A stretch of 64,000 nt of DNA from contig JAPLCJ010000017.1 of assembly GCA_026392255.1 (NCBI GenBank), positions 62,001 to 126,000 of the forward strand, given 5' to 3'. Below the pieces are notes generated by a model. That model ran no database searches, was not told where the DNA came from, and worked only from the letters and a program-made list of their open reading frames with translations. Below are positions 27,800 to 29,381 of this stretch, one piece after another. The translations under genes and the position numbers were made by a program. This DNA comes from Solirubrobacterales bacterium (lineage in GTDB: Bacteria > Actinomycetota > Thermoleophilia > Solirubrobacterales > Solirubrobacteraceae). Each line of letters starts with the position of its first letter. Positions within the stretch are counted from its first letter, which is position 1.

Positions 27800-28381
27800 T
27801 TAGGCAGAGAGCCTCTCGCTTGCGCGACGGACGGCTTCCGTGCCAGCATTGACGCCGGTCTGGACTGCCTGCTCTACCTGACTCTGCAGAAACCCAGTGG
27901 AGTTCGCAAGGTCAATCTGTGTGATTGCTTCGCGGACTGACTCGATACGGGCTGCTGCCTGCTTGGCTTCACGCTCGACGCGGGTGCGCTCCGTGCGTAC
28001 GCGCTTCTCAGCGGTGCGACGGCGAGCCTTCAGCTCACGCTCAACGCGAGTGCGTGTCTTCTTGACACGGCGCTCTGCCTGCTTACGGACCTTTTCACCA
28101 CGGCGCTCGAAACGCTTGAGCTGCTTCTCAGCGGCTTCTGCTGTTCCGTAACGAGCTTGGAGGTCCTCAACTGTTCCGGCGACTGCGTCGCGAGCCTCAA
28201 GGGCTGCGCCGACTGGCACGACTACTGCGCGCTCTGCGGCTTCACGGACGCGCTCGACGCGGGTCAGAGGGGTTGGGGCTGCTGCCTTAGGCTTTGCCTT
28301 GGCTCGGGTTGAAGTCTTTCGCTTTGCTGCCGTTGTCTTGGCTGCGGTTGCGCGCTTCTTTGTGGGGGTTGTTGTGGCCAT
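27800..28381 (-). CDS. Lysine-rich histone H1/phasin/HbhA-like coiled-coil protein
   Basis: A 193-residue, very basic protein. Residues 1-40 are a Lys/Ala/Thr/Pro tail (MATTTPTKKRATAAKTTAAK) like bacterial histone H1-type tails. About 42-75 (RVREAAERAVVVPVGAALEA) resembles phasin or heparin-binding hemagglutinin cores. About 80-165 is a long charged coiled coil rich in Arg, Lys and Glu with repeats of TRVERE and KRVR. A role in nucleoid binding, granule coating or surface adhesion is possible; the tail at the N-terminus, not the C-terminus, differs from HbhA. The ATG is chosen by AAGGAG seven bases upstream. Its promoter carries a LexA-type box (28445-28458), which favours a DNA-related role. 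Confidence 0.65.
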   Translation of the reverse strand: MATTTPTKKRATAAKTTAAKRKTSTRAKAKPKAAAPTPLTRVERVREAAERAVVVPVGAALEARDAVAGTVEDLQARYGTAEAAEKQLKRFERRGEKVRKQAERRVKKTRTRVERELKARRRTAEKRVRTERTRVEREAKQAAARIESVREAITQIDLANSTGFLQSQVEQAVQTGVNAGTEAVRRASERLSA

Positions 28382-28407
28382 CACGCTGCTCCTTGTCTGT
28401 AGAACTG

Positions 28408-28436
28408 ATCTTATTAGTTCTAATGTTGTTCCTCAA
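28408..28436 (-). promoter_or_regulatory. Promoter of the histone-like gene
   Basis: On the minus strand TTGAGG (28436-28431) and TAAGAT (28413-28408) are 17 bases apart. The -10 lies in an inverted repeat AGAACTGAT-CTT-ATTAGTTCT (28401-28421, one mismatch), which could be a second operator. The leader ends with AAGGAG. Confidence 0.55.
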
Positions 28437-28444
28437 GATAGCAC

Positions 28445-28458
28445 CGAACGGGCGTTCG
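28445..28458. promoter_or_regulatory. LexA-type SOS box
   Basis: CGAACGGGCGTTCG is a perfect CGAAC-N4-GTTCG palindrome, the core of the LexA operator in Gram-positive bacteria and actinobacteria. It lies nine bases upstream of the -35 of the histone-like gene, in a 145-base gap insulated from the upstream gene by hairpins. LexA binding here would put the gene under DNA-damage control. The assignment is by motif only. Confidence 0.6.
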
Positions 28459-28475: not shown

Positions 28476-28519
28476 TGTGTGACTAGATTCACACAGAGCG
28501 GGGTTGGCGGTCACCCCGC
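28476..28519 (-). terminator. Two hairpins ending the inositol-phosphatase transcript
   Basis: GCGGGGT/ACCCCGC (28498-28519, seven pairs, eight-base loop) is followed on the minus strand by TGTGTGA/TCACACA (28476-28495, seven pairs, six-base loop) and then ACCTTGTTTTG. The second hairpin with its T-rich tail looks like an intrinsic terminator. Confidence 0.55.
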
Positions 28520-28526
28520 CAGTCGA

Positions 28527-29381
28527 TCAACCCTTGACAGCCCTCGCGGCCACAGAGATCGCGATGTCTAACGACTGCTGGTCACGCCCTGCGGCAATGG
28601 GCGCATGACCGATCAGGTCCAGAGGAGCCGCAAGAGGTGCGTCAAGGCCGGGGAAGCAAACCAACCCACCGGCCTCTCTAACTACAAGCTGGGCGGCGGC
28701 GGCATCAACTGCCCTGCAATCCCGCAGCGAGACCATCGCGTCGTAACGCGTGGCTGCGACCTGGCAGAGGGTTACGGCAATGGCACCCAAAGCCCTCAGC
28801 CGGTAAGCGGCGTTAAGCAACTCGTCCCCAGCGCCAACAACCCAGCGGGGGTCTGCGGACTCAATGCCGAGGATCTCAACCTTGCCGTCCTCCCTAATTC
28901 GGGCCGGCAGCGAGGGGTCAAGCGGAAGACCGTTAAGCGTGGCTCCCTGCCCACTGACAGCGACCCATTCCTCCCCAGCATGGAAGTCATGGACAAAACC
29001 GAACACAACATCCTTCACCGTCCAACCGGTTGCCACCGCGACGGACAGGGCGCACGGACCGCCCACGCGCTTGGCGTTAAGCGAGCCATCAATTGGATCA
29101 ACCAGCACTGCGATATCGCGGGAGCCAAAGTCCACCTCGCCACGCTCCTCGCCAATGGCAGTGAACGCAAGGCCGTCCGCACTCAACTTCGTCAGCTCCG
29201 CGAAAACAGCGTCCTCCGCGAGCTCGTCGATCACAAGCGTCCTGTCGCCTCCCTCACCAAGTCCAACGACAACAGCACGGTCCACAGTGGTCGCATGGTC
29301 TGCGAGTACCTCGTCAATCCCGCTGACCATCCGTCGACACGCGTCGAGCCAAGGGGCTGAATCGAAGTGACTTGAGCTCAT
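28527..29381 (-). CDS. Inositol monophosphatase family phosphatase
   Basis: A 284-residue Mg2+-dependent phosphatase. Metal ligands are in IGEERG (E78/E79) and DPIDGS (D95, D98), and the later stretch RDCRAVDAAAAQLVVREAGG corresponds to the C-terminal metal Asp region. Family members act on inositol phosphate, histidinol phosphate, fructose-1,6-bisphosphate or PAP, and the sequence does not choose. The usual second motif WDxAAG is altered to AVDAAAA, which makes a non-inositol substrate plausible. The ATG at 29381 is only 21 bases from the divergent GTG of the helicase-nuclease gene. Confidence 0.8.
   Translation of the reverse strand: MSSSHFDSAPWLDACRRMVSGIDEVLADHATTVDRAVVVGLGEGGDRTLVIDELAEDAVFAELTKLSADGLAFTAIGEERGEVDFGSRDIAVLVDPIDGSLNAKRVGGPCALSVAVATGWTVKDVVFGFVHDFHAGEEWVAVSGQGATLNGLPLDPSLPARIREDGKVEILGIESADPRWVVGAGDELLNAAYRLRALGAIAVTLCQVAATRYDAMVSLRDCRAVDAAAAQLVVREAGGLVCFPGLDAPLAAPLDLIGHAPIAAGRDQQSLDIAISVAARAVKG

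Follow-up and report, generated by a model that had tools for sequence, protein, structure and literature searches.

A LexA-type box conserved before the gene for a nearly order-restricted basic protein suggests control by the SOS repressor

The published LexA motif of the actinobacterium Streptomyces venezuelae is tCGAAC-N4-GNNCGa (PMC9380542). Changes in chromosome packing after DNA damage have been described in other lineages: DdrC of Deinococcus radiodurans is a damage-induced, lineage-specific protein that condenses DNA, under DdrO/IrrE (PMC5436757), and DNA supercompaction in damaged Escherichia coli depends on RecN (PMC12462666). Within actinobacteria, HbhA of Mycobacterium tuberculosis has been reported as a nucleoid-associated protein (PMC10665949). 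Here, we describe a locus that may bring these themes together. In the 64-kb stretch of DNA analyzed (the window), a gene for a 193-aa basic protein lies at 27800-28381 on the minus strand, matching the lysine-rich protein gene that an earlier note on this DNA had placed at 27.8-28.4 kb. Upstream of it, at 28445-28458, lies the palindrome CGAACGGGCGTTCG, a putative LexA operator to which no strand is assigned. Judged from sequence comparison, the gene is very probably under LexA control through this box. The argument starts from the presence of the box and its match to the lexA box of the genome and clade. In addition, the box is conserved before orthologues, it overlaps a putative promoter seen in aligned relatives, and on the upstream side it is associated with no other gene.

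Apart from CGAACGGGCGTTCG, the window contains no perfect CGAAC-N4-GTTCG, and the earlier claim of a perfect palindrome in the promoter region of the gene thus holds. Shuffled windows contained a mean of 0.08 perfect matches (the earlier estimate was 0.06 per window), and 7 of 100 shuffles held at least one. Across the source genome (1.66 Mb in 61 contigs, 93% complete) there are six perfect sites, where about two would be expected by chance if the window shuffle rate is scaled up. One site precedes lexA, one is the window box, and another lies ahead of an imuB-like gene whose product is a Y-family polymerase with an IMS domain; two fall within long open frames, like chance sites. The sixth perfect site, CGAACATATGTTCG, is on contig C50 (L006:1501-1514). 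It separates a 5S rRNA from a murA-like gene, lies about 180 nt ahead of the murA-like start, and is a possible further LexA target.

The shuffles that hold a match, and the perfect genomic sites inside open frames, would be compatible with the palindrome being a functionless chance match at this locus. Conservation before orthologues rules this reading out and leaves it with next to no probability. Searched with the single sequence, the family yielded the protein in 114 of its 146 genomes; searched with alignment A1, the order yielded it in 168 of 201. Only 13 of 296 genomes in a phylum-wide sample matched (nine from the same order and four weak), so the protein appears nearly order-restricted. 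Upstream regions of 90 family orthologues were then compared, counting as a box any site with at most one mismatch within 350 nt. The box was kept before 85 of the 90 (21 perfect, 64 with one mismatch), compared with 9 of 257 far-upstream control windows, none of them perfect, and 2.1% of shuffles under a dinucleotide model. Among the five boxless orthologues, the available upstream sequence is shorter than 130 nt for two, and a third has its box farther out, at -360. All 17 family genera tested carry the box at the same place, and the bases between the elements are not conserved. Two sister families carry it as well (17/22 and 31/32 orthologues, 48/54 together; control windows 0/59), and the frequency before orthologues is at least 25-fold over controls. 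The box is therefore retained across almost the entire order. The look at orthologues proposed in the earlier note thus came out in favor of the box. Because the left half of most orthologue boxes departs from the motif at one base (CAAAC, AGAAC or GGAAC), affinity at this gene may be below that at lexA.

The motif is also that of the lexA promoters. A single LexA_DNA_bind protein is encoded in the genome, combining an HTH domain with an S24 peptidase domain, and its own promoter carries the perfect box CGAACATCCGTTCG, the same motif as at this gene. Within the same GTDB family, lexA promoters carry the box with at most one mismatch in 30 of 30 cases (29 perfect and one with a mismatch), and the lineage consensus agrees with the S. 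venezuelae motif (PMC9380542). The earlier note had suggested inspecting lexA and recA promoters for the motif; lexA fits, and recA does not. No box with at most one mismatch was present within 500 nt upstream of recA in this genome or in the two congeners examined, and by the same measure 10 of 22 recA genes examined were boxed. Given this absence in the window's genus and in about half of its relatives (recA loci L008 and L284-L304), recA may be damage-controlled by other means.

Conservation before orthologues and the shared motif at lexA together support a link between LexA and the gene, from which we infer that LexA would bind and repress here and that damage would induce the gene. Alternatively, the box at this gene might be used by another regulator that recognizes the same sequence, such as a second LexA-like protein. 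Several genomes contain further, weaker LexA_DNA_bind matches, and one family, the fourth considered (a further sister family; 5 genomes), has no box before this gene (0/5) though its lexA keeps one, both of which would suit such a regulator. In that family the gene would have left, or never had, LexA control, so the LexA link is not universal. Against a second regulator, the core of the box equals the lexA-promoter box of the same genomes, and the source genome has only one LexA_DNA_bind match. Moreover, in the sole genus whose LexA has a diverged HTH (g26, in a sister family; genomes G146 and G149, LexA loci L258 and L259), neither lexA nor this gene has the box. This joint loss counts for LexA control, and we consider a different regulator highly unlikely. 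A replacement box common to lexA and this gene in g26 was considered and dropped, as no shared palindrome was seen between the two. With their diverged HTH and own promoters without a recognizable box, L258 and L259 are candidates for a change of LexA specificity.

The position of the box relative to the promoter suits repression by LexA. In an alignment of 84 family promoters on the box, TTTACA or GTTACA runs into the box itself (positions -4 to +1). On its other side, TAnnnT follows at a distance of 2-12 nt in 52 of 84 loci versus 11% of shuffles, giving the pattern TTTACAAAC-N4-GTTCG...TAnnnT in relatives. With the -35 fused to the box and TAnnnT just beyond it, the box would cover the -35 and spacer, a normal geometry for repression. 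The CAAAC variant of the left half would then be imposed by the overlapping TTTACA -35. By this alignment, the putative -10 in the window is TATCTT (extended TGC-TATCTT) at 28435-28440 on the minus strand, 4 nt past the box in gene orientation. The earlier note had read a different promoter, TTGAGG-17-TAAGAT, nine bases from the box. These letters exist on the minus strand (28436-28431 and 28413-28408), at a counted distance of eight bases from the box rather than nine. As a working promoter the pair is disfavored and is probably not the one used, since the conserved -10 is nearer the box and TAAGAT sits beside a conserved leader palindrome.

The box can be assigned to this gene from the arrangement of its neighbors. 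An inositol-monophosphatase-family gene lies upstream at 28527-29381 on the minus strand, co-directional and outside the unit. In 85 of 88 loci the upstream neighbor, a Zincin_2 or inositol monophosphatase family gene, is transcribed in the same direction. The box is thus ascribed to the gene studied here, and service of a divergent neighbor was rejected. Within one genus the upstream neighbor differs (inositol monophosphatase in G000, L018, versus Zincin_2 in G143, L019), and the downstream proteins are 96% identical. On the 3' side, a 171-nt gap in which no terminator or promoter was recognized precedes an mrp-like gene, and the transcript might continue into it. The earlier statement that the promoter serves only this gene is thus supported on its upstream side and unproven on its 3' side.

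Between the upstream gene and the box, the hairpins earlier described as insulating were recovered. A GC-rich hairpin (28498-28519, minus strand) folds at -13.9 kcal/mol 3' of the stop codon of the upstream gene, and the palindrome TGTGTGA-N6-TCACACA with its T-rich tail (28476-28495, minus strand) looks like a terminator of that gene. This palindrome suits a CRP/GlxR-type site as well as a terminator stem, and also occurs in G143, where the upstream gene is another. Closer to the box, about 20-25 nt upstream of it, 64 of 84 family promoters contain GTAAC (L026, L035 and L103 are examples), which shuffles show at a rate of 0.4%; the counterpart in the window is GTCAC (28479-28483, minus strand), which differs by one base. 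GTAAC also persists in the family without a box at this gene; it may be an activator site, or the partner of the -35 GTTACA in an inverted repeat.

The putative 5' leader contains a further conserved element. The palindrome TTAG-AA-CTAA (28414-28423, minus strand) overlaps the second inverted repeat of the earlier note, TAGAACTGAT/ATTAGTTCTA, which was located at 28400-28422 with 9 of 10 pairs. The form TTA[GC]-NN-[CG]TAA occurs in the leader of 70 of 147 loci across four families, versus 0.35% in shuffles, with examples of TTAG-NN-CTAA upstream of loci L018, L038, L101 and L192. Its long form, TTAGNNCTAAYANNCTTA, was considered as a regulon motif and rejected: it is present in 11 of 201 genomes, once in each, and all 10 places checked were the promoter of this gene. 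Occurrence once per genome marks it as a gene-specific element. That it mediates self-regulation is a guess. The leader hairpin in the source genome is no stabler than shuffles (z -0.72), and no Rfam family matched in three orthologue loci scanned.

The nature of the product is less certain than its regulation. The protein has a pI of 11.4, in keeping with the histone-H1-like basic composition reported earlier, and a net charge of +24. Residues 1 to about 45 form a Lys/Thr/Ala-rich tail (charge +12 over 45 residues), followed by a conserved hydrophobic patch at about 49-67 (consensus AERAVLVPVGAAL.ARD) and a long, charged, predicted helix. AlphaFold2, run on the single sequence without an alignment, predicts helices at 41-161 and 164-192 (pLDDT 83, pTM 0.41), a model that is informative about little more than the presence of a long helix. 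The protein has no fitting family in Pfam or NCBIfam, phasin and nucleoid-associated protein families included, and solved structures yielded no convincing relative, with no nucleoid-associated protein among the matches. Its composition and predicted shape suggest a nucleoid protein that probably binds DNA.

Even with a genuine LexA site, the product could serve elsewhere in the cell, tethering storage or polyphosphate granules as PhaF and AlgP would, or using its hydrophobic patch to act at the membrane or envelope. The architecture does resemble that of the H1-tailed granule proteins AlgP and PhaF (PMC9239181), and a conserved hydrophobic helix precedes the predicted coiled coil. A PHA synthase domain, PhaC_N, is present in 4 of 22 genomes of relatives examined, as a granule role would favor, but it is absent from the other 18 and gave no match in the source genome, 93% complete. 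For this reason a phasin role is unlikely. The phasin-like label of the earlier note, for which Pfam and NCBIfam also gave no phasin match, is not supported. Control by the SOS repressor, in addition, suggests chromosome trouble over storage. Taken together, a granule or membrane protein is the less favored reading, unlikely but well short of negligible.

We hypothesize the following mechanism. LexA, the SOS repressor, would occupy the -35 and spacer of the promoter and block transcription. Upon DNA damage, RecA-stimulated self-cleavage of LexA would free the promoter and allow the protein to be made. With its putatively disordered Lys/Arg-rich tail and predicted long basic coiled coil, the product could then coat, bridge or tether the chromosome during repair, a proposal drawn from composition and predicted shape that we regard as evenly balanced between right and wrong. 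A broader version is more speculative and, in our estimation, somewhat more likely to fail than to hold. In it, the gene would be a lineage-specific core SOS gene, kept silent as long as LexA persists. Its chromatin-like product would afterward reshape the damaged chromosome or protect it, and the leader TTAG-NN-CTAA would add a layer such as self-regulation.

The LexA box consensus was already known; what is new is SOS-regulon membership, as proposed here, for a gene of an uncharacterized protein family. The SOS response of this little-studied actinobacterial order would thereby gain an apparently core gene, one that is boxed there far more regularly than recA. The association suggests damage-controlled chromosome packaging by LexA, and offers a first, easily tested clue to the function of a protein family that neither Pfam nor NCBIfam models. 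Among the titles and abstracts listed, in a search mostly outside subscription journals, papers joining LexA with phasins, nucleoid-associated or histone-like proteins described no LexA-controlled histone-like protein of this type.

Several known systems share features with this locus. As in the actinobacterial LexA/SOS regulon of S. venezuelae, where lexA itself and repair genes are controlled through the box tCGAAC-N4-GNNCGa, the gene described here would respond to LexA; in contrast to that regulon (PMC9380542), most other actinobacteria searched lack the gene family, and recA is often unboxed in this order. The words histone and nucleoid are absent from the main text of that study. AlgP and PhaF of Pseudomonas likewise join a histone-H1-like basic tail to a helical part, but their tail is C-terminal with KPAA repeats, and PhaF acts on PHA granules, the synthase for which is missing here (PMC9239181). 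RecN is a coiled-coil SMC-like protein (PMC12462666), whereas the protein here has no recognized domain. DdrC offers a parallel in regulation, as a lineage-specific gene under a damage-responsive repressor, although that repressor system is DdrO/IrrE and not LexA (PMC5436757), and for the present gene we infer the control. In its predicted architecture, the protein resembles HbhA, itself a small basic protein that combines a hydrophobic segment with an alpha-helical coiled coil and a Lys-rich tail (PMC10665949). The tail of HbhA is C-terminal and the tail here N-terminal, and the passages of that source drawn on here contain no LexA control of HbhA. By analogy, HbhA is a plausible model for how the protein described here might bind DNA independently of sequence.
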